Virus record (IMG/VR): IMGVR_UViG_3300033571_017531
Location: 1-30,540 of that record
Reading direction: 5' to 3' (one strand)
DNA from: a virus
DNA length: 30,540 nt
Position numbers and translations under genes: made by a program
Notes under the pieces: generated by a model
Told to the model about the DNA's origin: nothing
The model's input: only the letters and a program-made list of their open reading frames with translations
The model's database searches: none
Shown here: positions 2,133-29,044 of the stretch, piece after piece
Layout of the letters: every line of letters begins with the position of its first letter
Position numbering within the stretch: the stretch's first letter is position 1

Positions 2133-3911
2133 CTAGTACTCTCCTTTTTCTCCGCGTCTAAATTCTTTACCAAGAGCAAGTGCCGCCATAGGATCATACC
2201 CGTGTACAGTACCTTTCTGCCCATAGCTAGCCGCATCTATAAGGGTATCTTTCTGGTAACGATAACCTAATCTTTGTAACCAGTTAGGATTTAATAATGG
2301 AGTTCTGGTAGCTGCCGCCATTATTGGTTGTATAACAGGGCTTCTATCAGTGCACTCTATCTCATCTTTCCCTTTAGAAAGTATATCCTCAGCTATCCTT
2401 CTAGTTATAGGCGTACCTACTGTGTGCTCAAATATTGGCTTTGTTAGTATCTTACCTATAGCCGAAGAAACTTTAGACAGATTACCTGTGTTACTAAGCT
2501 CTTTGGTAACTTGGTTCAATGGAACTATGTCACCCTCAGTTAGGTCCCCTATGGGATTTATTACCTTAACATAATTTAGCTGTGTCTTAGCCAATAATTC
2601 TAGGTTTCTTTGGTCTATCTTAACGCCAGATTCCTCAAATGCTCCGCGTAAAGATTTAACTAAGTACTCTCTGCCAGCACCAACACCCTTGTGCTTAAGT
2701 ACTTCGTCAGGGGCGGCTACCCCAGATGATAGTAAATCCCCTGGCTCAACTTCATCTCCCTCTGATATCTTTAGATCTCTTCCAGGAGGAACATAATGAG
2801 CAGAGCCATTTATATGTATGTCATATCCACCCTGTGGAGCTTTGCTAACTTTGTCAACCTTGCCCTTAGTGTCTGCTAGAGTTGCTTTGTAAAAGAAGTT
2901 CTTCGGTATCTCTACGAATTGCTTGAATGCTTTTAGGCCAGAAGGCTTGGCTACGTCTCCTTTAACAAGAGATACTCCGTGCTTAGAACTCAGCTGCATC
3001 TGAGTTAGCGGTTCTGACATGGCTTGAGCAGCCCTAACACCTACATTAGCTCCGACCTTGTAGTCCTTACCTTGTACTGATGTACCCATGCACTTTTGGC
3101 ATATTCCCTGGTCTAGCTCGCAAGTCATACTTGACCTAACTAATACCTTACCGCCAGAAGAACTTAGCTGTGAGGCTAACTTAGAGTTAATAAGTTCGTT
3201 AGTGCCTGCCCTATATCTCCCCTCTATACTAGCATCAGAAGAATCCATGGGTATACCGTTGTGTGTCCCGCAGTCAACATCGGCTACCACCGCCCCTGAC
3301 ATAACAGCCGAAAGAACTTTCTGCATTTCCCCAGGCTCTGCAGTTCCTAGCTGGCCTTTAATAACCTGACCCCTAGACTCATCACCCGCTATCCAGGCTT
3401 CAGCTGGACTCAACCCTTCAGCGTAGCTTCTTTTTATTAAGAAGGGTACAGGCCTACCTGAGTAGTCACCTACTACAACAGGGGTAGCTATGGCTTTCAT
3501 CAATTGATTAACGTTTCCTCTAGATCCTGCCCTAGCAGTCATAGCCATGTCACCCTTGTGATTTTTCGCTAAGGTCTGTATTTTAGTTTGAGCGTCTACA
3601 TAGGCATCAAAAGCTTGGTCTGATGTAGCCCCGAACTTTTTAATTTTATCTTCAGCCTCATGTAGTATAGCATCCCTTTGCTCATACTCTGGCTCTATGT
3701 CGTCTAAACCTACTGTTATACCTTCGTAAGTAGCAAACTCATCTCCTATTTTCTTAATTTTAGGAGCCACGAATTTGTAATGTTCTGGGGCTTCTTTCGC
3801 TAATTTAACTAAAGTGCTCTTCATGCCTTTAGTAGTTACTGGTCCTTGAATCCTAAAGTCCTTGGGTAAGGCGTTGTTAACTAGTACATCAGCTAATCTT
3901 CCTGTGATCAT
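2133..3911 (-). CDS. DNA-directed RNA polymerase, C-terminal part of beta' as a separate chain
   Basis: This 592-residue protein begins where bacterial beta' continues after its catalytic NADFDGD loop. In order it shows the F-loop (ARAGSRGNVNQL, about 126-137), the bridge helix (about 173-205, with the conserved Thr190-Ala191 pair), a four-Cys zinc site (C214, C264, C271, C274), and the trigger-loop region (about 296-312). Next comes a barrel-like domain (KISEGDEVEPGDLL), then KGVGAGREYLVKSL and the beta' C-terminal region. In the trigger loop the catalytic His is kept (H311), while the position of E. coli R933 is Ser308 by my alignment. It must combine with the beta-beta'N fusion to form an active enzyme. 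The start overlaps the stop of the preceding gene (ATGA), which implies translational coupling. The assignment is certain from motifs; packaging in the virion is inference. Confidence 0.96.
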   Translation of the reverse strand: MITGRLADVLVNNALPKDFRIQGPVTTKGMKSTLVKLAKEAPEHYKFVAPKIKKIGDEFATYEGITVGLDDIEPEYEQRDAILHEAEDKIKKFGATSDQAFDAYVDAQTKIQTLAKNHKGDMAMTARAGSRGNVNQLMKAIATPVVVGDYSGRPVPFLIKRSYAEGLSPAEAWIAGDESRGQVIKGQLGTAEPGEMQKVLSAVMSGAVVADVDCGTHNGIPMDSSDASIEGRYRAGTNELINSKLASQLSSSGGKVLVRSSMTCELDQGICQKCMGTSVQGKDYKVGANVGVRAAQAMSEPLTQMQLSSKHGVSLVKGDVAKPSGLKAFKQFVEIPKNFFYKATLADTKGKVDKVSKAPQGGYDIHINGSAHYVPPGRDLKISEGDEVEPGDLLSSGVAAPDEVLKHKGVGAGREYLVKSLRGAFEESGVKIDQRNLELLAKTQLNYVKVINPIGDLTEGDIVPLNQVTKELSNTGNLSKVSSAIGKILTKPIFEHTVGTPITRRIAEDILSKGKDEIECTDRSPVIQPIMAAATRTPLLNPNWLQRLGYRYQKDTLIDAASYGQKGTVHGYDPMAALALGKEFRRGEKGEY

Positions 3912-5148: not shown

Positions 5149-5381
5149 CTTGTAGGAACCCCCATATTAGAGGGTGTGGCTATCTCTATTTTATGTGACC
5201 AGGTATCGCCATTCCTAAACTCTGAATCTCCGGTCATCTTAGTCTTATCTTTAACGTCAGAATAGCCTTCATCGTTATCTGATTCAGTAGAACTAACCAT
5301 AGCGGAAGCCAAATCTTCAGCACTTTCCAGCTGAGCTAACTTACATCCTAGTCTGTAGGCTATTTGTAAACTCTTCATCAT
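5145..5381 (-). CDS. 78-residue acidic protein between RNA polymerase genes (unknown)
   Basis: ATG 5381 overlaps the stop codon of the RNA polymerase fusion gene (TGATG), and the stop overlaps the next start (ATGA), so it is coupled on both sides. The N-terminus (KSLQIAYRLGCKLAQLES) matches the K-x-x-A-[FY]-x-x-G pattern of the neighbouring proteins at 1-247 and 258-1406. The rest is polar and acidic (TESDNDEGYSDVKDKTK), probably disordered. No enzymatic motif is present. A polymerase accessory peptide or a small virion protein with a packaging signal are both possible. Confidence 0.7.
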   Translation of the reverse strand: MMKSLQIAYRLGCKLAQLESAEDLASAMVSSTESDNDEGYSDVKDKTKMTGDSEFRNGDTWSHKIEIATPSNMGVPTR

Positions 5382-8300
5382 CAGTCATCCTCCTCTATAG
5401 TGACATTGTCATTAACAGCTACTTCGCCACGCCTATACGCAGACTGGGCATCCTTCACTGTCTTAAATTTAAAGGATTTAGTACTGGCTGGTACAGCTTC
5501 CGTTGATTTATATATACCGGCTATTGCTTCCATCTTAGGGTAAGCCAGTATCTGGTCCCTATTTCTATCGCCTAGAACGTTATTCGATAGCAACATATTA
5601 CCAGCATCTTTTACTGCCCCATCGGTTGCAGGTAAGTGCACTTGAAGCGCATCGCCGTCATAATCTAGATTCATGCCATCCTCCATAAACGGACTCACAG
5701 TAATAGTTTTACCTGAGGTTGGTACTGGCTTAGCAGCTATCATATTAAATCTGTGTAGAGTAGGGGCTCTATTAAGTATTACAGGTCTATTCTTAGATTC
5801 TATCATTAGCTCCTCCCTAGCTGCAGACACTTTATTCTGTACCATCTCCTTAGCCTGAACAGCACCGTACCCGCGCTTAACTAAGTTCTTTATTATGAAT
5901 GGGCTATACATTCCCCACATCATATCTTCAGGTAACCCAACCTCATCCATACCTAGATTTGGGTCTGGAGCTGCAGTTCCTCTACCAGTAAGATCTAATC
6001 TCTTAGCTAAGACCTTACCATTAAAAAACCCTGTCTTTGTACCAACAATAGTATTAACTATGCCTTTTACTTCGGTCTGAGCTAACTTAGCTGATACTGG
6101 AGGATTAACACCTATGACAGCCCCGGCAGCTTGTTGTACGTGGGCTCTCATCTCCCGTATATCTTCATCTGGTAGATCAAGATCCTTGGCTTCTTGTAGT
6201 TTGTCTTTAGCTAATATAAGGTCCTTGTATAAATGATTAACGTCGCTAACTAGCAAGTCGCCATTTTGGCCTGGTACAATAGGTCTAAACTGCGCGGGTA
6301 TTACAGGGAAGTACTTAGTCATATAGGCTTCGCCTGGTTTGTGCCCGTTCTCTTTAAGGGCTTTTAGTGCCTTTATTTTTTTATATGCATTGTCTTTGTC
6401 AGCTCCCTTAAGTTTAGTAAGTGAGCTCTTAGTAGCTTCTAGCTCTTTATCTACGTCTAAAGAGTTTAACTTCTCCCTAACATAGTCTCCGCCTTTCTCC
6501 TGCACCATCTTAGATAAACCTGATTCAGTCGTCCCTAACAACCTTCTAGCAGGGTCATTAAATAGGGGATTCATTACTGATTCAGGAAGCTCTATATGCG
6601 TGTACTTAGTACCTTGCAACCCACCTGTTCTAGCTATGTCAAACAGGCCATCTCTCTCTGGCATTAGGTTCTTGGATAAAACCATCTTACCGTTTTTAAT
6701 CTCTCCAGAGGACATAGCCTTTACTTCCGAATCTAGCAGTGGAGTTAAGGTCATGTCATTCCCCTTCCTATCCATTCTAAGTCCAGCCCCTGTTAGCATG
6801 TGCTTAAATTTGTCATAGGCAAAACTACTTTGTGGCGGTGGAACGGGTCTGCCTAGCTGCACAGCTCTCCAGTACTCTGAGTTTCTAGTCCCTTTTATAA
6901 CAGCATTTTCTTTCAAGATGTCTCTGGCGTCATGAGCCAGAAGTGCATTAATTTCCATAAGGCCAGTACCCTTAGCGCCTTCGTCTCCGCCCTTACTAGG
7001 AGCACCATTTATATCATACCCGCCGTCAACACCTCTAGCCGAGAAGTTAGTATCAGTGTCCTTAAAAAGCCTGTATGTATACTGAGGCCCTACCATGATA
7101 TTCTTAATTGTCTTACCTGTAACAGGGTCGTAAATATTTTCTTTATCAGATACACCAGCCTTTTTAAGTTCCTGCCTGGCCATCTTAACGTTGTTTACCT
7201 TTTGGAAACTTGGTACTACGTACTTGGTGCCTTGCTTGTCCGCAGCTTTAGCCATTGCAGTTTCTATTACCTGACCAGGGTTAATACGGGACACTACAGC
7301 CAGACTAGATAGCAACATGTCTATTGGCTTACCAGAAGCATCTCTAAGCATGTTCTCATCTTCAACTATCTTACCTACAACGCCCTTACCTCCGTATCTA
7401 TTGCATACCTTGTCACCTATTCTTAAAGGCTCTTCTGATTTAACTACAACAGTTACCTTATTACCCTGCTGCTGAACATCCACTACCTCACCTGAAGATT
7501 GGCCATCCCACACCTCAGTCTTGTCGGTGTACTCTGCTCTTAGAGACTTGTGTATTTTACCAAGTATTTGGTTTTCTATACTTGGAGCTTTTTTCTGTAG
7601 CACAGTTATAAGTGGGTCACCAGGGTTAATAATGGCGCCTTTCTTTACTAAGCCTGAGTCCAGCTTAGCGTACTGATCTTTATTAAATACCTTAGGGAAG
7701 TTAGCCATGTGCCTATTGTGGTCTATCCTAGTATCTTTATCTACTTCTACTACGTATTTACTCATCTTAACGGACTTCATCTTCTCAGCTGCTGACTGAG
7801 ATATAACAACAGCGTCATTTGAATTTAGCCCATGGTAAGCTACGTATGCTATCTTTAGATTTTTGCCTAAGGCAAGCTCACCGTCTTTTGTGTAGTTACT
7901 CTCAGCTAGCATGTCACCCTTGCTTACTTTAGTTCCTGGTTTTATTTTTAGTGTATGATTCAAAAATGTCTTTGAAGCCATAGGAACATTTTCAGCATAA
8001 GGAACTTCAGTTATCTCGCCAGACTTCTGTTTTATCTTTATAATACCACCTTCAGCACTAACCACTTCACCTTCTACAGGGGATAGCTTGTCTACTGCAG
8101 CAGCTACGCTCTTCTCCATTGATACCCCACCCATCTTACCATCTGCCGATACCTGAACTAGCGGAGCTTCTCTATGTACCAACGGCACAGCTTGGCCAAC
8201 CATTTTAGAACCCATGATTATACGATTACCCTGAGTGCTATCTAGGAAAGGTACCATGTTAGTGTTTATAGTATACATATGCTTTACGTCCGGTATAGCG

Positions 8301-9742
8301 TAGTCAACTTCAGTTGATTTTACTTTACCTACCTTACCCTTAGCCATAACGTCAACATTACCCTTATCAAGGTCTTGCATCGGGAATGCTATGTTTAGAT
8401 CTTTAATCTTCCTAGCTGGTACCCATTCGTTTTCACCAGACTTCACGTTCTTTAGCCTAGTGTATAAGTTTCCGTCCTTATCCCTACCTGAACCCATAGT
8501 AAACTTAACATCAACGCCTGCATTGGAAGATTCAGGTGTCCTGAATGGATCTATTATAGCCATCTGGGTGGGGTTTAAAGTTCTCACATCCCCAGGTATA
8601 GCCCTGTCATTACCTATACCGCCCTCACCCAAACGGGTTACTGCAAAATTACTATCAGCTAGTTCAACAGGATTTATCTGTGATGGTATAACAGCTAATT
8701 GAGATGTGGATAAATACTTCTTTAGCTCTGGAGCTAACACCGTACTAGGTAAGACCTGCCCTACTTTAACCTCTTTGGCTAAATCCAGCTTGTTTTTAAT
8801 CTTATATGCCAGCTCCCTACCTTTAAGCCTTAGTCTTTCTTTAAACATATCCTCGGGCCCTAATACTCTTTGGAACTCCAAGCTGTCTCTATCGTCAGGT
8901 TCAGACTCACCTTTATATACCTTAACTAGTTTCTCCCCTGCTATTAAAATGCTTTCAGGAGTTACCTTAGAAAACCCTTTGCCCAATGTTCTCTCTGTTG
9001 TCTTCTCTGATAGTATAGTGTTATCAAAGTGGTTATTTATCTCAGCTAGTTTATCTGCCTGGCTAGTCGCATTTCTCTTATTTTCTGGAACTAGTTTTTC
9101 GTACAGCTTATTAACTGCCATAGTAGACTTGTCTCCGTAGTATTCGTTGTTTCTGTCTGCTAGCTCTTTGCCCCACCTATTAGCTATATCTGTATGTGTC
9201 ATACCCATGCTTCGCAATACAGGGTATAGCGGTATCTGGGTAGTGCCATATTCCATGTTAAGTAAGCCCTTTTGAGGATTCATATTCAATCTGAAATTTG
9301 AACCTCTAGCCAAGTTAAAACTAGCTTCAAGTTCCTCATTCTCTCGCTGCCTTGTATACACGCCAGGTAATGTTCTAAGTTGGTGTTTGAAAGCGTATTC
9401 GTTTCCACCGACCATAAATGCGCCATTCCAGGATAGCCTTGGTACTTGCAGTAGTGTATGACCTTTGCGCTTGTCTACTATATTGCCCTGCTTGTCCTTA
9501 ACTATGACGTCAGCTTTGAGAGGCTCATATATAGTACCTCGTTTATATAGAGTATCTTTGTGCACATTGTAGTCTACCTTTTTTTCATCAACTCTAGCAT
9601 TTTCTATATGTATCTCATGGTGCGTCCCTATTATAGGGAATAGATCCTGTATACCCTCTATGGACTTCTCACGTATCCTCTGCTGTTTTATATCGTTGCC
9701 TTGCACTATACTGTACACTTTTGGTTCGTTATTTTCTGCCAT
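5381..9742 (-). CDS. DNA-directed RNA polymerase: beta fused to N-terminal beta' in one chain
   Basis: This 1453-residue protein contains beta from its N-terminal half (FMVGGNEYAFKHQLRTLPGVY, about 110-129) through the active-site motif GDKVCNRYGGKGVVGKI near 780, then SRINPGQVIE and the beta C-terminal clamp (GAKGTGLMEINALLAHDA). Without an evident linker, beta' begins near residue 1000 with EVKAMSSGEI and PERDGLFD. It continues through THIEL to RAPTLHRFNMIAAKPV and the catalytic loop NLDYDGDALQVHLP near 1360, with all three metal-binding Asp present. The chain ends soon after. The rest of beta' is the separate 592-residue gene. The usual four Cys of the N-terminal beta' zinc finger are missing. 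No alpha or omega subunit is seen in the window. The start is ATG 9742 at a divergent promoter-like gap. Confidence 0.97.
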   Translation of the reverse strand: MAENNEPKVYSIVQGNDIKQQRIREKSIEGIQDLFPIIGTHHEIHIENARVDEKKVDYNVHKDTLYKRGTIYEPLKADVIVKDKQGNIVDKRKGHTLLQVPRLSWNGAFMVGGNEYAFKHQLRTLPGVYTRQRENEELEASFNLARGSNFRLNMNPQKGLLNMEYGTTQIPLYPVLRSMGMTHTDIANRWGKELADRNNEYYGDKSTMAVNKLYEKLVPENKRNATSQADKLAEINNHFDNTILSEKTTERTLGKGFSKVTPESILIAGEKLVKVYKGESEPDDRDSLEFQRVLGPEDMFKERLRLKGRELAYKIKNKLDLAKEVKVGQVLPSTVLAPELKKYLSTSQLAVIPSQINPVELADSNFAVTRLGEGGIGNDRAIPGDVRTLNPTQMAIIDPFRTPESSNAGVDVKFTMGSGRDKDGNLYTRLKNVKSGENEWVPARKIKDLNIAFPMQDLDKGNVDVMAKGKVGKVKSTEVDYAIPDVKHMYTINTNMVPFLDSTQGNRIIMGSKMVGQAVPLVHREAPLVQVSADGKMGGVSMEKSVAAAVDKLSPVEGEVVSAEGGIIKIKQKSGEITEVPYAENVPMASKTFLNHTLKIKPGTKVSKGDMLAESNYTKDGELALGKNLKIAYVAYHGLNSNDAVVISQSAAEKMKSVKMSKYVVEVDKDTRIDHNRHMANFPKVFNKDQYAKLDSGLVKKGAIINPGDPLITVLQKKAPSIENQILGKIHKSLRAEYTDKTEVWDGQSSGEVVDVQQQGNKVTVVVKSEEPLRIGDKVCNRYGGKGVVGKIVEDENMLRDASGKPIDMLLSSLAVVSRINPGQVIETAMAKAADKQGTKYVVPSFQKVNNVKMARQELKKAGVSDKENIYDPVTGKTIKNIMVGPQYTYRLFKDTDTNFSARGVDGGYDINGAPSKGGDEGAKGTGLMEINALLAHDARDILKENAVIKGTRNSEYWRAVQLGRPVPPPQSSFAYDKFKHMLTGAGLRMDRKGNDMTLTPLLDSEVKAMSSGEIKNGKMVLSKNLMPERDGLFDIARTGGLQGTKYTHIELPESVMNPLFNDPARRLLGTTESGLSKMVQEKGGDYVREKLNSLDVDKELEATKSSLTKLKGADKDNAYKKIKALKALKENGHKPGEAYMTKYFPVIPAQFRPIVPGQNGDLLVSDVNHLYKDLILAKDKLQEAKDLDLPDEDIREMRAHVQQAAGAVIGVNPPVSAKLAQTEVKGIVNTIVGTKTGFFNGKVLAKRLDLTGRGTAAPDPNLGMDEVGLPEDMMWGMYSPFIIKNLVKRGYGAVQAKEMVQNKVSAAREELMIESKNRPVILNRAPTLHRFNMIAAKPVPTSGKTITVSPFMEDGMNLDYDGDALQVHLPATDGAVKDAGNMLLSNNVLGDRNRDQILAYPKMEAIAGIYKSTEAVPASTKSFKFKTVKDAQSAYRRGEVAVNDNVTIEEDD

Positions 9743-9855
9743 TTTTCTATCTCACTTTATGTCAAAAATATGCCTAATTATATGTCATAAGTATACGTCC
9801 GACTAGGGCTACTCGTAAAGAGTCTAACAACACACAGTCATAAAGGAGTTTTACC
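9743..9855. promoter_or_regulatory. Divergent intergenic region with candidate bidirectional promoter
   Basis: This 113-bp gap separates the RNA polymerase gene (minus) from the 373-residue gene (plus). TATGTCATAAG lies at 9781-9791, followed by TATACGTCC, and a second TATGTCA is at 9759-9765. With its left flank the first element reads TTAT-n6-ATAA, a loose inverted repeat. Close relatives occur at 13562-13583 and 26035-26054. AAAGGAG at 9843-9849 serves the plus-strand gene. No clear -35 TTGACA with correct spacing is visible for the TATAAT read on the minus strand. Confidence 0.5.
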
Positions 9856-10977
9856 ATGACTAAAGAAAATAAATTTAGCGTCGTGCTAGTGGAACCAAAG
9901 AACAGGGAATCCGACAAAAGCGTATTGAGATCCTACGCACCATTAATGTTGGAAGTTACACTCGACGTATCCGGGAAATTTGATGATCCAGTAGTTGGCT
10001 GGAAATACAAGAATATGCAAACAGCCATCGAAGAAATCAAGTCACACATGGAAAGCATTTGTGCAGAATATCAATCAGTGCTTTCTCTGTCCATGGTGGA
10101 AACTGAGGTTATGGGCCAGCATAAAATCAAGGTATGTCATCGTACAACCGATGGTATGAAAGATGCGGACAGTCGCAGACAGAGCTATATGCCTTATGCA
10201 CACTGGGAAGGCGATACATTACCAGTACACTTGTGGGCTGCCAACTCCTTCAAGAGTGTTACACTCAAGTGGGGTGAAGTAGAAGTAAAGATTACTCCTA
10301 CTGAAGCTATGGCTATTCACAATTCCTTGTCCTGGGAAGGTCAAGACGCAAACCCCTACATTGGTGTGGAGGGGACTGTGTCTGACTTATTGTTTAGCAA
10401 AGCAGAAAAAGCTGGCATATCTATCACAAAAAGCTCGGACTACTTAAAGAGTATAAGTTCCCTAAAGATGGCTTCAATCAAGAGCAAGATCAAAGAGAAG
10501 GCAGATATGTTGGCTGCTCTGGCTGATCCAAGATTGGCCAACCTTCCAGCGTGCAGCGCCATTCTGAGGGACATACTAGATGCAATGCACATGGACAGCA
10601 TTGCGCTCAATGACACCGTAACTGATATGGTGTATGCAATGGCAGAAGGGTGCGTGGAGTTGGTGGATACTAAAGGAAGAAACTGGGCATCAGAAAAGGT
10701 GGAAGATTTCATCGCAGAGTGTGAACTAGCTCTAGAATACCTAGGGGCGGATACAGACCAAGATAGGATATACGGGTTTAATAAGTTCCTTAGCTGTATA
10801 GTCAGATACAAGGGCGAAAAACCTTCTAAATTTTCTGTAACAGACAAAGAGCTAAAGCTTATGCTTAACTCTGTAGGTATGTATCCTACGAGCAAGGGGC
10901 TAACACAAGATCTTGATGATGTTAATTTGGATGTACTTAAGATGCAGGAACTTAAAGGTCTACTACTAGGCGAATAA
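9856..10977 (+). CDS. Unknown 373-residue phage protein, first gene of the plus-strand island
   Basis: The start is ATG 9856 with AAAGGAG 6 bases upstream. The protein is soluble, mixed alpha/beta in appearance, with no signal peptide or membrane segment. I see no Walker motif, metal cluster or nuclease signature. The first half (to about residue 170) alternates hydrophobic and charged residues as in beta sheet. The second half is helical and Leu/Ala-rich. Codon use differs from most neighbours: its first third mainly uses ATC or ATT for Ile, whereas the surrounding genes prefer ATA, which hints at strong early expression. It is read divergently from the RNA polymerase gene. No family is recognised and the function is open. 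Confidence 0.85.
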   Translation: MTKENKFSVVLVEPKNRESDKSVLRSYAPLMLEVTLDVSGKFDDPVVGWKYKNMQTAIEEIKSHMESICAEYQSVLSLSMVETEVMGQHKIKVCHRTTDGMKDADSRRQSYMPYAHWEGDTLPVHLWAANSFKSVTLKWGEVEVKITPTEAMAIHNSLSWEGQDANPYIGVEGTVSDLLFSKAEKAGISITKSSDYLKSISSLKMASIKSKIKEKADMLAALADPRLANLPACSAILRDILDAMHMDSIALNDTVTDMVYAMAEGCVELVDTKGRNWASEKVEDFIAECELALEYLGADTDQDRIYGFNKFLSCIVRYKGEKPSKFSVTDKELKLMLNSVGMYPTSKGLTQDLDDVNLDVLKMQELKGLLLGE

Positions 10978-11030
10978 TTAATAGCATAGACGCGTGAGAC
11001 CACGGGAGCAGCTTGAGGTATGGATTATCC

Positions 11031-11318
11031 ATGCCTGACTTGGCTGTAAATGCTATGCATCTACGAATAGAGAATAGAGAAGAAGAACAAAAGTCCGGCT
11101 TAGTTGCAGAAGTCGGATGTGTATCTTTAGTACTTTTCGGTATGTGGATAGGTAAGACTTTGTTTGGCACTAGCCAAGAAAAACCTCAGCCCCCTACATA
11201 CTATAACAACTATGCGCAACCTACTCCTAATAACGGGGAAGACAAATATACCCCTCATCATAATCGCAGGGGGTACAAAAAGAGGAAAGGAGTAAGCAAT
11301 GATAGATCCAGGTTTTGA
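11031..11318 (+). CDS. Small single-pass membrane protein (95 residues, unknown)
   Basis: I chose ATG 11031 (MPDLAVNAMH). TTG at 11013 in the same frame has a closer GGGAG and would add six residues, so the start is uncertain. An N-terminal charged stretch of about 25 residues (RIENREEEQKS) is followed by one hydrophobic helix (LVAEVGCVSLVLFGMWIGKTLF). The tail is Pro/Asn/Tyr-rich and then strongly basic (RRGYKKRKG). It would sit in the inner membrane with a positively charged tail. Its position upstream of a micro-ORF and isolated from the replication genes suggests an accessory role. It is not obviously a holin, which would normally have a shorter tail or more helices. Confidence 0.65.
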   Translation: MPDLAVNAMHLRIENREEEQKSGLVAEVGCVSLVLFGMWIGKTLFGTSQEKPQPPTYYNNYAQPTPNNGEDKYTPHHNRRGYKKRKGVSNDRSRF

Positions 11319-13539: not shown

Positions 13540-13610
13540 ATATCTCCTTAATTAGTGTATTTATGTGTTATAAGTCTTAGTCCACTCACTTTAGAAAGGA
13601 GAGAGCTAAA
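13540..13610. promoter_or_regulatory. Divergent promoter-like region between portal and SNF2 genes
   Basis: This 71-bp gap contains TTATGTGTTATAAG at 13561-13574 followed by TCTTAGTCC. The core TGTGTTATAAG is identical to that at 26035-26045 and close to TATGTCATAAG at 9781-9791. The TTAT...ATAA half-sites are arranged as an inverted repeat, which fits transcription in both directions. AAAGGAGAG at about 13595-13603 is the ribosome site of the plus-strand gene. Confidence 0.5.
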
Positions 13611-15482
13611 ATGGATATATCAATAGTACGAGGTATAGCTTTTAAGCTATCAGGCATTCTAGCCAAAGATGTACAAATTATCAAAGGCTTATACGGAGCT
13701 ACGTATCAGAAGTCTACAAATGCTTGGTACTTACCAGCTTTCTACCCCTATGGATTAGAGTCCCTAAAATCTCTATACGATAATAAAAGCTCTTTAGGCT
13801 GGGAGGAGACTGAAGAGATTATTAGCCATAAGGATTATCTAGAATCTACTTCGCATAAGATATCATCTAATGATATAGATGGTTATGTACCAGTGCTAAA
13901 GCCATATGCTCACCAGCTAGAAGCTCTTAGCTATATTATACACACACCTAGGGCAGGGCTATTCTATGATCCTGGATTAGGTAAGACCAAGATAGTATGC
14001 GACCTAATAAGATACCTACATAGTAAGAATGCAGATGTAAAGGTCCTAGTTCTAGCACTAAGGGTTAATTTGTTTACCTGGGTTAAAGAGATGTCCTCTA
14101 ATTCCGCTAACTGTATTAGTATGCAGGCTATAACTTCCAGTACTCCAAAGGCTAGATATAGAGCTATAGACTCTGCTTATGAAAAATCAACCGGGATTGT
14201 TCTAACCTACGACTCCGCTAAAGTATCTGTAGATAAACTTCAGAAACTAAAGTTTGACCTTATAGTAGCAGATGAGAGCCATTCACTAAGATCTCCAGAT
14301 TCAGAAAGAACTTCTAGCATACTCAGGCTACTAGAGACTAATCCTATACACAGAAGGGTGATACTTAGTGGAACTCCCTCTCTAGGTAGTCCAGTTCACC
14401 TGTGGGGGCAGCTTAAATTCCTATCTAATTTCCTGGTAGGAAACCAGTTTGAATTTAAGAATCAGTTCTTAACTTTCTCACCCTACAACAAGCACATAGT
14501 CACTGGGCTAAAAAATATATCAAAGCTAAATAATATAGTTAGCTCTAGCTCAATAAGGAAAAAAGCTGAAGATTGCTTAGATCTTCCTGATAGGACTATT
14601 CAGGTAATAGAGTTAGACGCGCCTAGCAAGATGTCTAACATATATAACAAGATAGTAAATTACTTACCAGTTACTATAAACTCTGAGACTATACCGGCAG
14701 CCGAGAATGCTGTTACAGCTATGACAAGGTGTGCACAAATAACATCTGGATTTCTATACAAGAGTAACAGAAACACCAATATATGCGATTCTTGCCCTAA
14801 CCTGCCTAAGTGCGTTAAAGACAATGTACAGCCATACACTCAAAGGTGCGAGATAGTTAAAGTAGACCCAGGTAGGACTATATTAGATATTAATGATAGC
14901 ACTATTATAGGCGGCGTTATGGAGTTAGTAGAGTCGCATATGACTAGTGGATCTGAGGACTCTCCAGTTAAAATAATACTATGGGCTAAGCACCACGAGA
15001 TGTTAAACAGGCTATACTCTGAGTCTTCATCTAAGTACAAGGTATTCAGATATGACCACACTTGTATTAGCCCTAAGGAAGTAGAGGAGGAGTTTAATAC
15101 CTACACTAATAGCTGCATAATACTAGCCCAGATAAGTATGGGTATAGGTGTTACATTCAAAGCTCCGATAATGATATACGCTGAGCTAAGTTTCTCACTA
15201 GATCATTGGCTACAAAGCCTAGATCGGAACTACGGGATAAGGGCTAAGGGATTTAAGTCACTACTAGTACAAGTAGTGGTTATTAAAGACAGCCTTAGCC
15301 ATAGCACAGTAGCACTTTTGAATAATAAAATAGACGTAAGTAATCTTCTATCCACTAAACCTAATTGCATAACATGTAGTAATGTACTAACCTGCCTGCA
15401 ATCTAATATACAGCCATTTAAAGATGGGTGCATACTACCTAAAGACGCTGACAAGGTGTCAATACCATTAAAGGAGATTTAA
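13611..15482 (+). CDS. SNF2-type helicase/ATPase with duplicated four-Cys motif
   Basis: This 623-residue superfamily 2 ATPase shows a Q-like motif (LKPYAHQLEAL, 96-106), Walker A DPGLGKT (120-126), DESH box (221-224) and SGTP motif III (253-256). Lobe 2 follows, with SMGIGVTFKAPIMIY (509-523) and the arginine-finger region QSLDRNYGIR (535-544). Residues 1-95 form an N-terminal extension that may bind DNA. Two Cys motifs share exactly the same spacing, C-x2-C-x5-C-x11-C. One is at C392, C395, C401 and C413, between the lobes; the other is at C586, C589, C595 and C607, at the C-terminus. Both contain N-[VI]-Q-P-[YF]. They probably bind zinc or an iron-sulfur cluster. The gene opens the replication operon. 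Likely roles are fork remodelling, recombination or replication initiation. Confidence 0.9.
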   Translation: MDISIVRGIAFKLSGILAKDVQIIKGLYGATYQKSTNAWYLPAFYPYGLESLKSLYDNKSSLGWEETEEIISHKDYLESTSHKISSNDIDGYVPVLKPYAHQLEALSYIIHTPRAGLFYDPGLGKTKIVCDLIRYLHSKNADVKVLVLALRVNLFTWVKEMSSNSANCISMQAITSSTPKARYRAIDSAYEKSTGIVLTYDSAKVSVDKLQKLKFDLIVADESHSLRSPDSERTSSILRLLETNPIHRRVILSGTPSLGSPVHLWGQLKFLSNFLVGNQFEFKNQFLTFSPYNKHIVTGLKNISKLNNIVSSSSIRKKAEDCLDLPDRTIQVIELDAPSKMSNIYNKIVNYLPVTINSETIPAAENAVTAMTRCAQITSGFLYKSNRNTNICDSCPNLPKCVKDNVQPYTQRCEIVKVDPGRTILDINDSTIIGGVMELVESHMTSGSEDSPVKIILWAKHHEMLNRLYSESSSKYKVFRYDHTCISPKEVEEEFNTYTNSCIILAQISMGIGVTFKAPIMIYAELSFSLDHWLQSLDRNYGIRAKGFKSLLVQVVVIKDSLSHSTVALLNNKIDVSNLLSTKPNCITCSNVLTCLQSNIQPFKDGCILPKDADKVSIPLKEI

Positions 15483-22700: not shown

Positions 22701-23036
22701 GAGATGGACTGTGGTCTAAACTATGTAGAGGTTGAATCTAAAGACAGAGATTCTAAGACATACACCCAGAAATGGCTTATAGTAATGTGGCCTGATGTTC
22801 TTAGAAACTTACTATCCAAAACTAATAGATATGCTAAGGAGACTCCAGAACGTCTTAAGCGAATGGGAGATTCCAGCCACTCCGCAGTGCCTTACAACAC
22901 TGCTAGGAAGAAGGCTGGAGCCCTGAAGCAATTCTTAGGCCCTGGCATCAGTTCTTCTGAAATTACAATATTCAACATCACAGATATGATGGATGAATGG
23001 GACAATAGGAGTGTACCTGAAGATGATAAAACCTAG
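19731..23036 (+). CDS. Primase-helicase (CHC2 zinc finger, TOPRIM, P-loop ATPase)
   Basis: This 1101-residue replicative protein makes primers and probably unwinds the fork. The N-terminal zinc finger has C43, H48, C66 and C69 (CCPFPGHSD ... CFGCG). A TOPRIM-like core follows: AVLVEGEFDCLAHL near 269-282 with catalytic Glu, and LLLLMDHPDHNGDE near 318-331 with DxD. A long middle region precedes a P-loop ATPase: Walker A NGARGTGKS at 710-718 and Walker B ALDEFED near 760. The C-terminal region continues for about 340 residues. The single nearby Walker set and absence of RecA-type neighbours suggest a superfamily 3/AAA-like helicase and not a DnaB type; this is inference. Spacing to the preceding nuclease is three bases, and its end overlaps the polymerase start. 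Confidence 0.92.
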   Translation: METLKTHIRKIWEEVSLTAWKEILTEAGSSKWDIRGKSLRGCCPFPGHSDNSPSCYINTEKKFVKCFGCGAFESNPVKFVSIITASSWSTALKTLKDKGVKSLPVKVVQELQEAQLRAELKDEIAKACNDCLVSAILNPNDANNAYAQPLIKYLQSRGIPTNQDCIKWLPVGVLPPWVLLRANISQPDKAQEYLKDWLTAEFLGSLVFFYHKTPTELSRFKLRADFLRKNTQAKDIVYVKDEHEDSLGFFGLANYRSKYGGISSSGLDAVLVEGEFDCLAHLVNYYDTGITYDIVLGVGGAAASSPDLLKEECGVDKLLLLMDHPDHNGDEIAKGILRSTKLPSRVFTWPGCVDSKDPDDAIKKHGWDKWLSTITEIDTHDIKSVHRRYFETSHRWLVKVTAKELAGIDRDDLASIKKIVGANGTCLKDPDVQRLFATEITKYVPLSLSTVLEIIVGNDPSEEGLVSRIIQALRQEFFFIGSIEGKGSDAVIKAWHRRKKEPREWRVSKANELFGLLAIDIGPAVTWVRDNVGVPSFITTKHKANGSPAEVSLIDQNAALRKYIEFALDTISSELPTLKSLQEVKAGAHYLTANLGHGDETMWALVNGHDVYLGRYINKQLIWSILDGPSIGHYHFNISRAAWSREIKSCHDLEQGKNYSVEKTYSDLVGLINSAWGLLDGITDCKYLAAAMMVNAISSCLPRQLYTLLNGARGTGKSKLLDLVAGAEPRLRLVESTSDVQQAYTSAGFRKDMNNCALGAALDEFEDDRDDSHSNQVRAILRDIRGLTNAPECRITRGNVESADATVYTLKCQIWACAINYLREEADISRFMQIHTIKEDDKSDPHTVVLDTYSEEELTEIRRGISVGLFDKVPKFLEYVAELRSYYSQPEKMEELSRKAGVAVPSRFLDGVVITAAMVKLANNDPHKYIQEVICAKVNLLNIITESTHEKDLMGAILSSKVEYKRQGMDIRNTTIRTILSNPTDRHRLVEMDCGLNYVEVESKDRDSKTYTQKWLIVMWPDVLRNLLSKTNRYAKETPERLKRMGDSSHSAVPYNTARKKAGALKQFLGPGISSSEITIFNITDMMDEWDNRSVPEDDKT

Positions 23037-26016
23037 TTCATGCTCTGGATGTAGCTTATACAAATCCGATAAGATGGTAAATGGGGGTGGTGTTAGGCCA
23101 AGCCAGGTAACGTTTATCTCCTCCGGCCCACCTCCTTGGGGTGGATTGTTCACTGATAACGGAGGCAAGATACTAAAGCACATAATTAGCGATCTAGCTA
23201 AGAACTGTGATGATGCGGATAAAGAGGCAATAACCTTAATGGCACAGAAGCACTTCATGATGTATTCTGTATGCTGCCCGGGTAGCACAGTCAACGATAC
23301 TGTAGATAAATGCAAGTCTTCAGTGAGTGGTAATATCCTCGCCATGTCACAACCAAAGATTGTAGTTGCTATAGGTAAAGAGGCATGCCACTTTATGGGC
23401 ATATCTGGGAATATAACTGATATTAGAGGTACTGTGCACACCACTAAAGTCGCTGGAGTGGAGTATAAAGTAGTTCCCACATTGCCACTAAGTATGCTAG
23501 ATGACAAGCCTGGGCTGTATGAAATAGTAAAGTCCGACATCAGAAAAGCTGCGCTTACAGCTCATGGCTCTAAGCTAGATAACATAGATGTAGACTCGCT
23601 AATACAGGGGTATGACATACCTAGGAAACTTGAGGATGCTATATCAGTGCTAACTAAATACTCAGAATACGCTGGCGCTAATAAAGATATATCTCAAACA
23701 CTTATGTCACTGGACTTTGAGACTACTTCCCTATTTGCCTGGGATAATAAGGCTAGAGTTATAGCTATGTCTGGCTCTGTTGAGCCGGGTATGGCTTTTG
23801 CAGTTATGGTAGATCATAAAGACTCTAGCTACAAGTTTAAGGACATAGCTCCGTATGTAGTTAAGGTACTTAATAGCAAGCACCCAAAGGCGTGGTGGAA
23901 CTACAAATACGACTACGGGTTTGCAAGGTATTGCTTAACAAGGCAAATACTTGAGGTATGCAATGAAGATACCACATACTCTGAATGGTTTGAGAAAGAA
24001 TCTGGGTTAGGCTTAAAGGATCTTGTATCTAGGGGACCAGTTAATAATACTAGGTGGGATGGTATGCTAGGTGAGCATATGTTGCAAGAGGATAAGAAGG
24101 GATTCTACTCTCTAAAGGAAGTAGTAACCGAGTACTATCCAAGCCTTGTAGGGTATGAAGAAAAGCTGCATGCATTACTTCAAGAAGCCAAAGAAAAAGT
24201 AATTTCTTCTGAGCTAAGTAATTACCTGAAAAGAAACCCAAATAGCTGTGAGGGTATAGTTCTTAGCGATTCTTCTCCTACGCAGTGGGGGTTTGACTTA
24301 ACTAATGCCGAGGATATATGCAAAGCTAAAGTTAAGGAATTTAAGCGCTTAGCTAGATTGAAGAAAACGCCTGACGAGGAAAAGGCTGCATATGAAGATG
24401 CGTCCAACATACTCACTAATTGGATATCTGTTATCCATGAAGAATGTAAGATAGGTAAAGATGAGGTGTCCAGATGGTTAAGAGCTCTGGAGAGTACACT
24501 AGGTTCTTCTGGAGACCCCAGAAGAGGTTTGGTTACGTTTGAGGCTATAGATATAGATGTTATGCTACCTTATGCGGCAATAGACGCAGATCTAACTTTA
24601 CGCATCTCTAATAACCAGAGACTTGCCTGCTTAAAGGAAGACCCAGTAAAAAAGGCGGCTGCTGAGAATAGGCCACCTCTAGTAAAGCTAATGGACAATC
24701 ACTACATACCCTTGACAGAAGTATTGTGCGAGATGCAGGTAGAGGGTGTTAGAGTGGATAAAGATTTCTTGAGGTCTAGCCTTATAAAGCTAGAAGCTGA
24801 ATCCAGAGAACTAGAGAAGCAAATAGTAGAGACAGTAAAGGTTGACCTAAATAGAGACATAACACCCTCTGATATAACTAGTACTTCCACTCTAGCAGAT
24901 CTCCTAATTGCAGGATACAACTTGCCTAAGATAAAAGATACTAGTGGTGGGGCTGTTAGTACAGATAGAGAGGCTATGCAGAAGTATTCAGATATGGGCA
25001 ATAAATTAGCTGGACTTGTATTAAAATACAGGGACAATACTAAGGCTAGCTCTACCTATATAGAGTCTCTGCTAGACATGAGTGAGTATGATGGTAGAAT
25101 ACACGGTGCTATTCACTTGAATGGTACAGCTACAGGTAGGGCTAGCTCCAGTAACCCTAATCTGCAAAATATAACCGCTGATTTAGCGGGGCTTAATATT
25201 AAGAGTGCATTTGTACCTACTAATACCAGGGCTACTAGTGGCGTTGACTATAGGCTATGTGATAAATACGGTTGGACTAGAGATGACCAGCTTACTATGG
25301 TAGATATAGACTTTGCGGGGGCAGAGATAAGAGGTCTAACGGCTTACGTTAAAGACGAGCAGCTTATTGATGCTCTAAAAAGAAGCCTAGACATGCACTC
25401 ATGGATTGCATCTATGATATTCAATGACGACTATGAAACCATAAACAAACTTAGAAAAACTGACGACAGATACCATCAGATGCGGCAGAAAGCTAAGACC
25501 ATTGTATTTGGTTTGATCTATGGAATCTCTAATAAAGGGCTGTCAGACAGATTGAATATAACCATAGAAGAGGCTGACTCACTTATGAGTATATTCTTCT
25601 CAAGATTCCCTAAGATAGAAGAGTATATTAACATAACCAAAGCTAAAGTAACCCGGGAAGGTATACTTAGAACTCCTACAGGCAGAGCTAGAAGGTTTCC
25701 AATGGCGCAGATGGGAGGCCAATTCGAGAGTAGGAATCATAGGCAGGGCATAAACTACTTAGTGCAGAGCTTCTGCGCAGAGATAGTTTTGCGGCTAATA
25801 AATCACCTAAGACAAAACCTACATAAGATACGCGGTAGATTAGTACTTACTGTGCACGACTCTATAGTGATGGAGATACCAACTACTGAAGTAGATAATC
25901 TAAAGCAGTTTCTATCAAGTCATATAGACACATTCATAACTACTAATTTCCCTCAGCTACCAGTGTCGATGCCATACGACATAAAGCTAGGTAGATCATA
26001 CGGTGAAGCTGAATAA
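23023..26016 (+). CDS. DNA polymerase A fused to N-terminal uracil-DNA-glycosylase-like domain
   Basis: I start at ATG 23023 (MIKPSSCSGC), 11 bases after AGGAG and overlapping the primase end by 14 bases; ATG 22993 would add ten residues without a site. Residues 1-175 resemble Fe-S (family 4/5-type) uracil-DNA glycosylases: C7 and C10, then GPPPWGGLFTDNGGKIL, C84/C85 and C97. The usual HPS motif reads LPL (154-156). A 3'-5' exonuclease follows with DFETT (D231, E233), WNYKYDYG and YAAIDAD (D521). The polymerase domain has ATGRASSSNPNLQN, motif A DFAGAEIR (D763), motif B with R821, K825, F829 and Y833, and motif C HDS (945-947) in place of HDE. I recall a comparable fusion in SPO1-type phages. 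This is the replicase. Confidence 0.95.
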   Translation: MIKPSSCSGCSLYKSDKMVNGGGVRPSQVTFISSGPPPWGGLFTDNGGKILKHIISDLAKNCDDADKEAITLMAQKHFMMYSVCCPGSTVNDTVDKCKSSVSGNILAMSQPKIVVAIGKEACHFMGISGNITDIRGTVHTTKVAGVEYKVVPTLPLSMLDDKPGLYEIVKSDIRKAALTAHGSKLDNIDVDSLIQGYDIPRKLEDAISVLTKYSEYAGANKDISQTLMSLDFETTSLFAWDNKARVIAMSGSVEPGMAFAVMVDHKDSSYKFKDIAPYVVKVLNSKHPKAWWNYKYDYGFARYCLTRQILEVCNEDTTYSEWFEKESGLGLKDLVSRGPVNNTRWDGMLGEHMLQEDKKGFYSLKEVVTEYYPSLVGYEEKLHALLQEAKEKVISSELSNYLKRNPNSCEGIVLSDSSPTQWGFDLTNAEDICKAKVKEFKRLARLKKTPDEEKAAYEDASNILTNWISVIHEECKIGKDEVSRWLRALESTLGSSGDPRRGLVTFEAIDIDVMLPYAAIDADLTLRISNNQRLACLKEDPVKKAAAENRPPLVKLMDNHYIPLTEVLCEMQVEGVRVDKDFLRSSLIKLEAESRELEKQIVETVKVDLNRDITPSDITSTSTLADLLIAGYNLPKIKDTSGGAVSTDREAMQKYSDMGNKLAGLVLKYRDNTKASSTYIESLLDMSEYDGRIHGAIHLNGTATGRASSSNPNLQNITADLAGLNIKSAFVPTNTRATSGVDYRLCDKYGWTRDDQLTMVDIDFAGAEIRGLTAYVKDEQLIDALKRSLDMHSWIASMIFNDDYETINKLRKTDDRYHQMRQKAKTIVFGLIYGISNKGLSDRLNITIEEADSLMSIFFSRFPKIEEYINITKAKVTREGILRTPTGRARRFPMAQMGGQFESRNHRQGINYLVQSFCAEIVLRLINHLRQNLHKIRGRLVLTVHDSIVMEIPTTEVDNLKQFLSSHIDTFITTNFPQLPVSMPYDIKLGRSYGEAE

Positions 26017-26034
26017 CGCAAAAATATATAAAAC

Positions 26035-26054
26035 TGTGTTATAAGAATTCGTAT
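26035..26054 (+). promoter_or_regulatory. Promoter-like element in front of the structured non-coding block
   Basis: TGTGTTATAAG at 26035-26045, followed by AATTCGTAT, lies 19 bases after the polymerase stop. The 11-base core is identical to the one in the portal/SNF2 divergent gap (13564-13574), and close to the one at 9781-9791. Here the left half TTAT of the inverted repeat is absent (AAAC instead), and no divergent gene needs it. This suggests a dedicated plus-strand promoter for the downstream non-coding RNA. Confidence 0.5.
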
Positions 26055-26287
26055 TAACCAACGACTAGTTGTAAATACTCATATTCGTGGATTTCTAGCT
26101 GGTGCTAATCGCCAGTAACTATAAGTATGGAAGGTCAAACACACCTCAATCGCTGTGCTGCCACCGGCGCCGGATTGACAACTCCACTGGTCGGCTAAAG
26201 CCTACTGTGCTACGTTGTCTACCCAGGCTTCCGAGGGCTGCTCAGCAATGCGGTCGTATCTGCTTCGCAGCACGAACTAATGCTAAC

Positions 26288-26418
26288 TACAAGTAATGGA
26301 TCTAGTATAGATTAAAAGTCTATTGTCATAAATATGAACTGACATGATCATGCAGATTCTGGAAGCTACCTACGGGACTTCCTAAATCTTACAGGTTAGT
26401 TCTTCAGCATTACTTGTA
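26288..26418 (+). ncRNA. RNA domain: 11-bp helix enclosing a branched arm
   Basis: TACAAGTAATG (26288-26298) pairs perfectly with CATTACTTGTA (26408-26418). Inside, GAACTGAC (26336) pairs with GTTAGTTC (26395), including one G-U. Within that, AGATT/AATCT (26354/26385) and GGAAG/CTTCC (26361/26378) are separated by a symmetric 2x2 internal loop. ATAGA/TCTAT near 26307-26322 can form a side hairpin, giving a multi-branch junction. Confidence 0.6.
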
Positions 26419-26434
26419 ATTTATAAATTACATT

Positions 26435-26590
26435 TGCAGTAGCACGGATTATTGCTGACTACTAATGGCTAGCTTCATATAATACCAATAATGGTATGTA
26501 TGGGTTAAGAACCTCCAGGCTGCCCCCTGAAGGTTCTATACCTCTACTTATTCTAAGCGTGCTACTGCAGCGTAATCTACTGGGTATTAT
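26435..26590 (+). ncRNA. RNA domain: perfect 12-bp helix with possible pseudoknot
   Basis: TGCAGTAGCACG (26435-26446) pairs perfectly with CGTGCTACTGCA (26558-26569). Enclosed are hairpin ATACCA-ATAA-TGGTAT (26482-26497) and hairpin AGAACCT/AGGTTCT plus CAGG/CCTG (26508-26537). ATAATACC at 26479-26486, inside the 12-bp helix, is fully complementary to GGTATTAT at 26583-26590, outside it. This would be an 8-bp pseudoknot, competing with the first hairpin. Confidence 0.6.
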
Positions 26591-26657
26591 CTATTGGCGG
26601 ACTATCATAGGTTAGCACAAAGGCTAATCAACTGTACTATTCTTAAGAAAAAATAAA

Positions 26658-26786
26658 TGCGATCTTTCGACTGGTACAACCTACTTCGTTAGGGCTGGTT
26701 ATACCTGATTCATCCGTAGCGATGCTCTACTTCATCAGACATAGCCAGACCTAAACGAAGTAGACTGTACCAGCTTTCATCTCGCA
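26658..26786 (+). ncRNA. RNA domain: 129-nt rod of stacked helices
   Basis: Nested helices in register are TGCGA/TCGCA (26658/26782), CTGGTACA/TGTACCAG (26671/26766), CTACTTCGTT/AACGAAGTAG (26681/26754), AGG/CCT with one bulged A, CTGGTTAT/ATAGCCAG (26695/26741, one G-U) and CTGAT/ATCAG (26705/26734). About 39 pairs in 129 bases are far beyond chance for a coding-free segment. Confidence 0.7.
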
Positions 26787-26914
26787 GTTACATTAACAGC
26801 GCCAATCTAAAGCAATAACTATTGTTGCTTCTATTGTGTCATTAGCTACAGGAATACAGCCAATACTTATTATTGGCAACATGCTAATACGCGGTGAAGA
26901 AATGACCCGCATTT

Positions 26915-27037
26915 GGAAGCTCGACTGCCTCACTTGCATCCGCTCAGTAGCCCGAGTGCCGAGCTCTAAGTTTACTACTTCGAGCTCTATACTCGGGACT
27001 TCTAGAAGCTACTGCAAAACCAGGCCTACGAGCTTCC
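26915..27037 (+). ncRNA. RNA domain: 123-nt rod with symmetric internal loops
   Basis: GGAAGCTCG/CGAGCTTCC (26915/27029) is perfect over 9 bp. A 3x3 loop (ACT/CTA) is followed by GCCT/AGGC (26927/27022), then CAGTAG/CTACTG (26945/27009), CCCGAGT/ACTCGGG (26951/26991), a 3x3 loop, and GAGCTC/GAGCTC (26961/26982). An internal CTTCTAGAAG may form a side hairpin. All helices nest without conflict. Confidence 0.7.
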
Positions 27038-27241
27038 GAAACTGGGTACTATTCCCTAGCTGTAGCTCTAATGTTGGGTTTCTAGGCGTGGCAAGAAATC
27101 TTGGACTATCCAGGGTAACTATTTGATTACGAGGGTAATATAGTAGCCCTAAGGTTCTGGGCTCGATAAATCCAGCCCTGAACCTTCCAGGCAACTATAC
27201 TACTAAGCACGCCTCTACTTGGTGCCTAATGGATTTTTTTT

Positions 27242-27535
27242 AGCAGAGTTAAAAGCTTTGTGTTACGTAACAATAACCTTAAATGAATTGCGCCTTATCC
27301 AGGGCTGAGAAAGATAAGACGCACTAAGGTAAAAGCATTGGGCTAGCTAGGTGCATATCTAAGGGTTACCCTTAGGAACTTAATTAGTTGCACTTCCATA
27401 AGAAAGGATGACTTCATGCAACGCCTACCTGAATCGGAGGCGCTGCATTCAATAATCAATACTTGACTTAGCTATGTCACTATAATCCTGCTAATATATT
27501 TTAGGTCTAACCTATATACCTCAGTAGCTATCTTC
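27242..27535. other. Second gene-free structured stretch before the terminase 3' end
   Basis: These 294 bases hold no supported gene but have further stems: palindrome TGTTACGTAACA (27261-27272), ACCTTA/TAAGGT (27276/27325) around GCG-CTTATC/GATAAG-CGC (27290-27322), CTAAGGG-TTA-CCCTTAG (27359-27375) within GTGCA/TGCAC (27351/27389), and ATGCA plus CGCCT with AGGCG plus TGCAT (27416-27448). Two isolated A-C mismatches here would be G-U on the minus strand, so this part may belong to a minus-strand RNA, for example the 3' region of the terminase transcript. TATGTCACTA at 27473-27482 repeats exactly at 29067-29076. Confidence 0.5.
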
Positions 27536-29044
27536 TTAATAGAAGACTAAATCATGTGTTAAGATCTTACAAGCTACCCATGCAAATACACAAGCGTGTA
27601 AGCAGTCATCTGGAGTATTAGGTGAGTGTCTCCAAACTTTTTTACCTGAGGGAGTTACTTCTTCATACTCTGCTAAGAAGTCATCAAACGCTTCTTTCAT
27701 CTTAATGTAATTAGGGAATTCAAACCCACCCTTTTTTACAGTATAGAAAAAGCAGTCTATTAGAGTAGTTCTGTCAGCTGTGTATCTATCTACATTGTTC
27801 CAAGTAAGGGCTTTGTTCTGAGATCCGTATTGAAGTTGATACAACGGCTTGCCTGCTAATTTCTGTGTTAGCAATGAATTGGCTAAAGCACCCTCACCCG
27901 CATCAGCTACTATGAGTGACACATTGTGAATTGCAAGAAACCTAACAATATCATCTATGGTATCTACTGGATTTTGTACTGGGTAGATTTTGTAATCTAA
28001 TAAGGTAGTCTTACTGCCTGGATTTCTACACATTACTGACACTACAGTTCTGGACAAACCCTTAGTTCCACCCCCTGACCAGTCTACACCCGCTACTACA
28101 AAGCCTGACGGCGAAACAGAGCTTGAACAACATGCCTTTAAATCTTCTAGTGAAACTAATCTAGATCCTACTGCATCTGATACGCCCATGACTTCGTTCT
28201 TGAACTTAGATTCTGAATAAGTTTCTTTCTTTGTAAGAATTCTTTTCCACCTGTCTGGCTCTTGATTTGCTGGTAATATAACTTGAGGCACATGAAACGC
28301 TTGTATTAGCGATTGGTCTAACGGCTTCATATCTACCCAACACCCATTGCGAGGATTAACTAATTTACCGCAATGGAGGCAGGATAAACCTGCTTTAGAG
28401 ACGCCTTTATCGTCTCGGTAGAATGAATGCTTATTACAACCGTCGCACTTAATACACCATTCGGATTGAGTACTATGTTGCCATAGATACTCAATAGTGT
28501 TTTCTTGTGTCTTGGGAGTTCCCATATAAGTTATATACCCATACCTTGAGTTAGACATGGATTCATTGATTACAGGAACTACTGCGTCATAATCTATATC
28601 CTGCACCTCGTCGTATATTACTCTATCTGCAGTAATACCACGTACTCGGTCAGGGTCGTCTTGTGCGTAATTGAAGAGAAGTTCAGATCCATTTCCTAGA
28701 ACCTTTAGAAAAACGTTGTCATTAACAATCTCGCCCATCATCTGCTTAAGTAAAGGAGAATGCCTTATTAGTTTAGAAATACGAGTATTGCTAAACGTAC
28801 TTGTTTGCTTAGAACTTGGCGATATGTATAACGATTTAAAGTATGGTATGGCTATAGCCTCACATACTGAAAAACTAGCTGCAGATACAGACTTGCCTAC
28901 CTGCCTACCACACATCAATAATGTTTGGGGCCATATACCTTCGTAGAGTGCATCATAGAATGGGTACTCTTCCAAAGTGAACGGCTTGCCATCTAGCATA
29001 AGAACAGCTTCTGCAAGCTGTTTTCTAGACATAGAAAATTCCAA
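27536..29044 (-). CDS. Terminase large subunit (DNA-packaging ATPase-nuclease)
   Basis: This 502-residue packaging motor binds the portal, translocates DNA into the head and cuts the concatemer. Walker A is GRQVGKS (46-52) and Walker B VIYDEVQD (142-149). A zinc-ribbon-like element lies in the linker (C197, C200, C203 and C222, C225), reminiscent of GpA-type terminases. The RNase H-like nuclease has AGVDWSGGG (D321), IVADAG (D381) and TPDDCLHA (D479/D480). I keep the TTG start at 29044 because AGGAGG lies only 5 bases upstream of it; the first ATG (29032) would be 17 bases away. No small terminase gene is seen nearby. It is divergent from the MoxR gene. Confidence 0.95.
   Translation of the reverse strand: MEFSMSRKQLAEAVLMLDGKPFTLEEYPFYDALYEGIWPQTLLMCGRQVGKSVSAASFSVCEAIAIPYFKSLYISPSSKQTSTFSNTRISKLIRHSPLLKQMMGEIVNDNVFLKVLGNGSELLFNYAQDDPDRVRGITADRVIYDEVQDIDYDAVVPVINESMSNSRYGYITYMGTPKTQENTIEYLWQHSTQSEWCIKCDGCNKHSFYRDDKGVSKAGLSCLHCGKLVNPRNGCWVDMKPLDQSLIQAFHVPQVILPANQEPDRWKRILTKKETYSESKFKNEVMGVSDAVGSRLVSLEDLKACCSSSVSPSGFVVAGVDWSGGGTKGLSRTVVSVMCRNPGSKTTLLDYKIYPVQNPVDTIDDIVRFLAIHNVSLIVADAGEGALANSLLTQKLAGKPLYQLQYGSQNKALTWNNVDRYTADRTTLIDCFFYTVKKGGFEFPNYIKMKEAFDDFLAEYEEVTPSGKKVWRHSPNTPDDCLHACVFAWVACKILTHDLVFY

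Follow-up and report, generated by a model that had tools for sequence, protein, structure and literature searches.

Few large structured RNAs are known from phages, and for two of them, GOLLD and ROOL, the functions are unknown. GOLLD and ROOL often lie near tRNA islands, and each forms a homo-oligomeric cage. Repetition is a feature of other RNAs: the sponge RNAs CsrB and RsmZ carry repeated hairpins, variable in copy number, that present one loop motif to a protein, and type III antitoxin RNAs such as ToxI are tandem structured repeats, each of them a short pseudoknot. GOLLD, ROOL and OLE are described in PMC12286853, where ROOL is a large ornate RNA found in phages and prophages.

Here we compare with these systems a locus in an IMG/VR virus record. 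The window, i.e. the whole stretch of DNA analysed, is 30.5 kb long and may be a genome fragment. Our data indicate that a gene-free stretch of roughly 1.5 kb in it is very probably the source of a long, folded RNA composed of repeated junction modules. The covariance models of Rfam 15 gave no family at threshold in the window (gathering) or in the block (E up to 10), nor in the relatives L001-L004, L030, L032, L033, L035 and L037. GOLLD (RF02032) gave no gathering-score match in these searches or in a GOLLD-only search, the latter having no control genome that gave a match. No tRNA or tmRNA was found in the 30.5 kb, which may hold only part of the genome. The preliminary description of this DNA, made without database searches, had offered either membership in the GOLLD/ROOL class or a new class, and had named GOLLD, ROOL, OLE and all other Rfam models as the search to run. 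With no family at threshold and no tRNA the first branch found no support, and the second fits because tandem three-way-junction modules occur at a hypervariable locus.

Location and folding of the block

The block (26017-27535) sits between the genes of a DNA polymerase and a large terminase subunit (Table 1). Its small ORFs have no Pfam or PHROG family match in a family search, in agreement with the gene-free block first described. Positions 26035-27241 fold at -411 kcal/mol, whereas dinucleotide shuffles give -321 +/- 9, a z of -10.4; coding controls gave z of -1.5 and -1.8. When the whole window was scanned in 200-nt stretches and these were ranked by how extreme their folding was, the first two, and four of the first five, fell within the block.

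The structured block noticed earlier is confirmed, with a fold z of about -10, and its long helices exist. Both of the rods said to exceed 120 nt exist as inverted repeats, of 103 and 143 nt, so that only the second has the claimed length. The right end had been drawn at a run of eight T residues, and this end could not be maintained: no terminator hairpin precedes the run, and structured sequence, including one canonical module, continues past it to about 27530, where it reaches the terminase gene. A long helix that would close the structure (26577-26587/27516-27527) was not retained, as chance alone should, by a rough estimate, produce a helix this long in 1.5 kb.

Table 1. Features of the block and its neighbours (window coordinates)
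Feature	Position	Strand	Remarks
DNA polymerase	22993..26016	+	phrog_17, E 2.5e-106; upstream neighbour and synteny anchor
Upstream promoter box CGCAAAAAT	26017..26025	+	CAAAA-type box ahead of TGnTATAAG in 12 blocks
Extended -10-like element TGTTATAAG	26037..26045	+	TG[GT]TATAAG also closely follows the polymerase gene in relatives
Predicted structured RNA (both ends inferred)	26052..27530	+	fold z about -10, promoter, synteny
Candidate variant module 1	26288..26418	+	P1 26288-26298/26408-26418, 11 bp, probability 0.96; fold z -3.9
Candidate variant module 2	26434..26570	+	P1 26434-26446/26558-26570, 13 bp, probability 0.96; fold z -6.1
Long rod	26671..26773	+	inverted repeat I1; helix probabilities 0.94-1.0
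Triloop hairpin AAGCAAUAA-CUA-UUGUUGCUU	26810..26830	+	predicted fold
Long rod	26905..27047	+	inverted repeat I2; helix probabilities 0.93-1.0
Candidate variant module 3	27084..27214	+	P1 27084-27090/27208-27214, probability 0.92
T8 run	27234..27241	+	not a recognisable terminator; paired internally in the extended fold
Canonical module	27344..27474	+	sole descriptor match at 7.5 or more; fold z -2.8
Terminase large subunit	27536..29044	-	phrog_675, E 1e-60; convergent neighbour

Elsewhere the window encodes a primase-like protein, a helicase, exonucleases, a sigma factor and a ParB-like protein. Two ORFs match multi-subunit RNA polymerase families; those at 2133-3911 and 5381-9742 match different parts of one RNA polymerase-related family, phrog_25354, and the pair looks as if a multi-subunit RNA polymerase had been split and rearranged. 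One 200-nt stretch outside the block, 10951-11150, has a + strand fold z of -6.3 and includes a hairpin at 11016, AGGTATGGA-TTA-TCCATGCCT.

Conservation of position and promoter

We sought relatives among IMG/VR contigs with the polymerase and the terminase as anchors. Blocks in the same place were found in L028, L031, L029/L030, L032, L033, L034/L037, L035/L036, L047, L054, L055 and L061, while the more distant L038 and L039/L040 share the position of the block only. The polymerases of L031 and L028 are 65% identical to that of the window, and those of L029/L030, L032, L033, L034/L037 and L035/L036 are 42-45% identical. The two flanking genes are convergent in most of the relatives. A search of GTDB genomes with the polymerase alignment found no relative. 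Most of the terminase relatives L005-L026 are without a comparable block; downstream of the terminase gene, L013 has a gap of about 720 nt and L015 one of about 390 nt, neither containing long ORFs. Salmonella phage Arash, whose RNA polymerase and terminase (about 33%) place it among the nearest isolates, was considered but lacks the module.

Twelve blocks, the window's included, share both position and promoter, starting close behind the polymerase gene with a CAAAA-type box followed by TG[GT]TATAAG (window, L028, L031, L030, L032, L033, L035, L037, L047, L054, L055 and L061). In the eight blocks measured, the second element begins 1-41 nt after the polymerase stop. The fuller form CAAAAAT ... 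TGnTATAAG is present in the window directly 3' of the polymerase gene. The preliminary description had seen this element in two divergent promoter regions as well, and both are there: TGTTATAAG recurs exactly at 13566-13574 in a divergent gene gap before the helicase gene at 13611, and a near copy, TGTCATAAG, with an upstream TCAAAAAT box, occupies 9783-9791 in the divergent gap before a gene at 9856. These two elements may define, together with the promoter of the RNA, one phage promoter class. The weight of the promoter evidence lies in the positional conservation among relatives; the count of TGTTATAAG within the window is not above chance. In the contigs of L033 (60622 and 124138) and L039 (29929, 108360 and 128795) TGGTATAAG stands 3-42 nt ahead of ORF starts, a placement as expected of a phage promoter.

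Sequence turnover and compensatory changes

The blocks of the relatives range from about 230 to 1500 nt, and all of those folded are more stable than shuffles on the + strand, with z from -2.9 to -15. Most cannot be aligned with one another. L028 and L031 have polymerase proteins that are 97% identical and flanks with 89% nucleotide identity, and their blocks align in the leader and in short pieces only. L054 and L055 have flanks about 90% identical and blocks of different lengths, the difference being apparently of whole modules. By these comparisons the block is a hypervariable locus. In L028 two ORFs (9425-10643) separate the RNA block from the terminase gene, and much of this region has little or no remaining similarity to L031 despite the 89% identical outer flanks.

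Where relatives are close enough for alignment, the changes are compensatory. The alignment of L032 and L033 has 630 common columns, and its + strand consensus fold reaches -178.9 kcal/mol versus -74 +/- 6 for column shuffles (- strand: -166.9 versus -79 +/- 7). Between the two, 31 pairs changed on both sides, compared with 12 on average and never more than 18 in controls. Among L054, L055 and L061 we counted 10 double changes on the + strand versus a mean of 2.6, the excess being weak in the pairwise comparisons L054/L061 and L055/L061. The alignment of the window with L031 shows no excess, and neither this comparison nor that of L028 with L031 gives a usable signal, the sequences being too different. 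The main block of the window stands outside the covariation evidence, as no homologue is near enough to align. Paired segments changing without compensation, which the preliminary description had named as grounds for rejecting a structured RNA, did not occur in the relatives checked. The central claim of that description, a structured phage RNA of large size under a promoter of its own, is upheld by synteny, by conservation of the promoter and by the compensatory substitutions in relatives, and the RNA nature of the block is well supported.

Module architecture

The folds of L032, L033, L035 and L037, from which we drew a descriptor by eye, contain a recurrent module: an outer helix P1, GCU, a triloop hairpin (NNA, often G-C closed), a variable arm, UUG, and the second strand of the helix, P1'. 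With overlapping alternatives counted, the pattern from P1-GCU to UUG-P1' has 16 matches in L032, nine in L033 and six each in L037 and L035; in these four the shuffle means are 0.07-0.19 and the reverse strand gives 0 or 1. The triloop hairpin is present in 34 of 35 module candidates versus 38% of shuffled interiors. Because the descriptor was built on these four, the independent evidence comes from the window and from L030, L031, L047, L038 and L039, which a slightly wider form of it matches. Modules are about 95-140 nt long and number about 1 to 7 per phage. When the triloop was required, 16 matches were obtained in 2.59 Mb of phage contigs, seven of them forming clusters in the known L032/L047 contigs; a loose pattern run over IMG/VR gave, among the matches listed, clusters only in the known L032 and L047 contigs.

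In the window the proposed features (P1-GC to UUG-P1', and towards the 5' side a hairpin with an NNA triloop) occur in one canonical copy, the only descriptor match of 7.5 or more in 61 kb (whole window, both strands). It reads P1 TAGCTAGGT, GCAUA, the hairpin CUAAGGG-UUA-CCCUUAG (27359-27375), UACUUG and ACUUAGCUA, and is placed beyond the end drawn in the earlier description. The main block (26052-27241) has zero strict descriptor matches, and its putative modules are of variant form only. Three P1 helices there, starting at 26288, 26434 and 27084, have G on both inner sides, a number that is not significant (shuffle mean 0.75, maximum 5); judged by the predicted folds, they may represent variant modules. 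In the first, P1 is followed by the hairpin AUCUA-GUA-UAGAU, and the second has several inner hairpins.

Strand and alternative explanations

The reverse strand of 26035-27241 folds as well as the + strand, with z -12.2, so that the strand of the RNA cannot be told from fold energy alone. After correction for composition the + strand is not favoured in the window or in L028 and is weakly favoured elsewhere, so that fold energy as a strand test was mostly undecided. Counts of G.U versus A.C at isolated mismatches were dropped, as E. coli rRNA failed this test too. In hairpins, the excess over shuffles is larger for G.U than for A.C in all three groups, the window clade included: about +87 versus +52 in the canonical group, +44 versus +4 in the L054 group and +35 versus +7 in the window clade (summed over hairpin classes), with an rRNA control, at +33 versus +17, that shows no more than partial asymmetry. 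The G.U excess, combined with the promoter, favours the + strand.

The near equality of the strands would also suit an array of palindromes acting in the DNA, as hairpins or cruciforms of an origin, a packaging site or a recombination site, and the hypervariability and the adjoining terminase gene agree with such a site. We regard this as quite unlikely, given the G.U excess, the stronger + strand consensus fold of L032/L033, three-way junctions with conserved unpaired bases, and a promoter kept directly in front in 12 blocks. That promoter also speaks against reading the block as a 3' untranslated or terminator region of unusual size, serving to insulate the operons of the polymerase and the terminase, which converge here, from each other. 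The gene arrangement in most relatives would invite this explanation, which seems improbable to us: the block spans 1.0-1.5 kb where a short hairpin would suffice, it has no terminator-like site, and in L028 and L031 more ORFs follow downstream on the same strand. An antisense or seed-type RNA that pairs with a fixed host or phage target would find many loops available. We saw no long unpaired stretch conserved between lineages, and L028 and L031, for all the likeness of their polymerases, have hardly any block sequence in common apart from the leader and a few short segments, which makes a fixed target very improbable.

The main rival in our analysis is an RNA-only homo-oligomer or cage of the GOLLD/ROOL kind, with the modules as assembly units and no dedicated protein partner. 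Repeated modules could serve in this way, and in size, phage origin and helix density the block resembles GOLLD and ROOL as presented in the consulted sections of PMC12286853. We consider such an assembly unlikely: there is no Rfam match and no tRNA island in the window, and tandem modules and extreme turnover are not among the GOLLD and ROOL features described in those sections. A multivalent scaffold or decoy for a protein is the most economical reading. Promoter, place, junction bases, triloop and modularity are kept, whereas helix sequence, module number and any long unpaired stretch are not, a contrast that suggests recognition of shape rather than pairing with a fixed target.

Proposed mechanism and implications

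We propose that the block is a gene for a structured noncoding RNA of about 1.2-1.5 kb, which would be transcribed rightward from the phage promoter that directly follows the DNA polymerase gene. Such an RNA would be a chain of three-way-junction modules, each consisting of P1, the hairpin with its three-base loop and a variable arm that returns straight to P1. Across the relatives base pairs change freely, with compensation, and the fixed elements are the NNA triloop, the GCU and UUG of the junction, the promoter and the position. Each module could then offer the same three-dimensional knob, made of triloop and junction, to a phage or host protein, and multivalent binding would make the RNA a scaffold or a decoy. 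We give a probability of roughly 0.45 to this reading, a new, hypervariable, multi-module + strand phage RNA whose modules present a shape to protein. We suggest, tentatively and at less than even odds, that it belongs to an undescribed class of viral RNA genes under selection for shape only, possibly arising from an arms race with a host factor.

If this is true, nearly the whole sequence has been replaced even between phages whose polymerases are 97% identical, and promoter, position and the three-way-junction design have been kept. Homology searches would miss such RNAs, since flanking genes that are 89% identical can enclose blocks that cannot be aligned. The simple repeated module (about 100-140 nt), the conserved promoter and the natural variation in copy number make it feasible to test a single module for its partner or its structure.

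Comparison with known systems

The window family resembles CsrB and RsmZ in its repeated hairpins with one loop motif and variable copy number, but has a different loop motif and three-way junctions. Tandem structured repeats are shared with ToxI, whereas the module here is about 95-140 nt and not a short pseudoknot, and no toxin gene was recognised beside the block. Like GOLLD (RF02032), the window RNA is long, highly structured and phage-borne, with its function likewise unknown; it differs in having no covariance-model match, in its tandem small modules, in the lack of tRNAs in the window and in its extreme turnover. From ROOL, which often lies near tRNA islands, it differs in its place behind a DNA polymerase gene and in matching no Rfam family. 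The likeness to ROOL, which PMC12286853 describes from phages and prophages, is that of one large ornate phage RNA to another.
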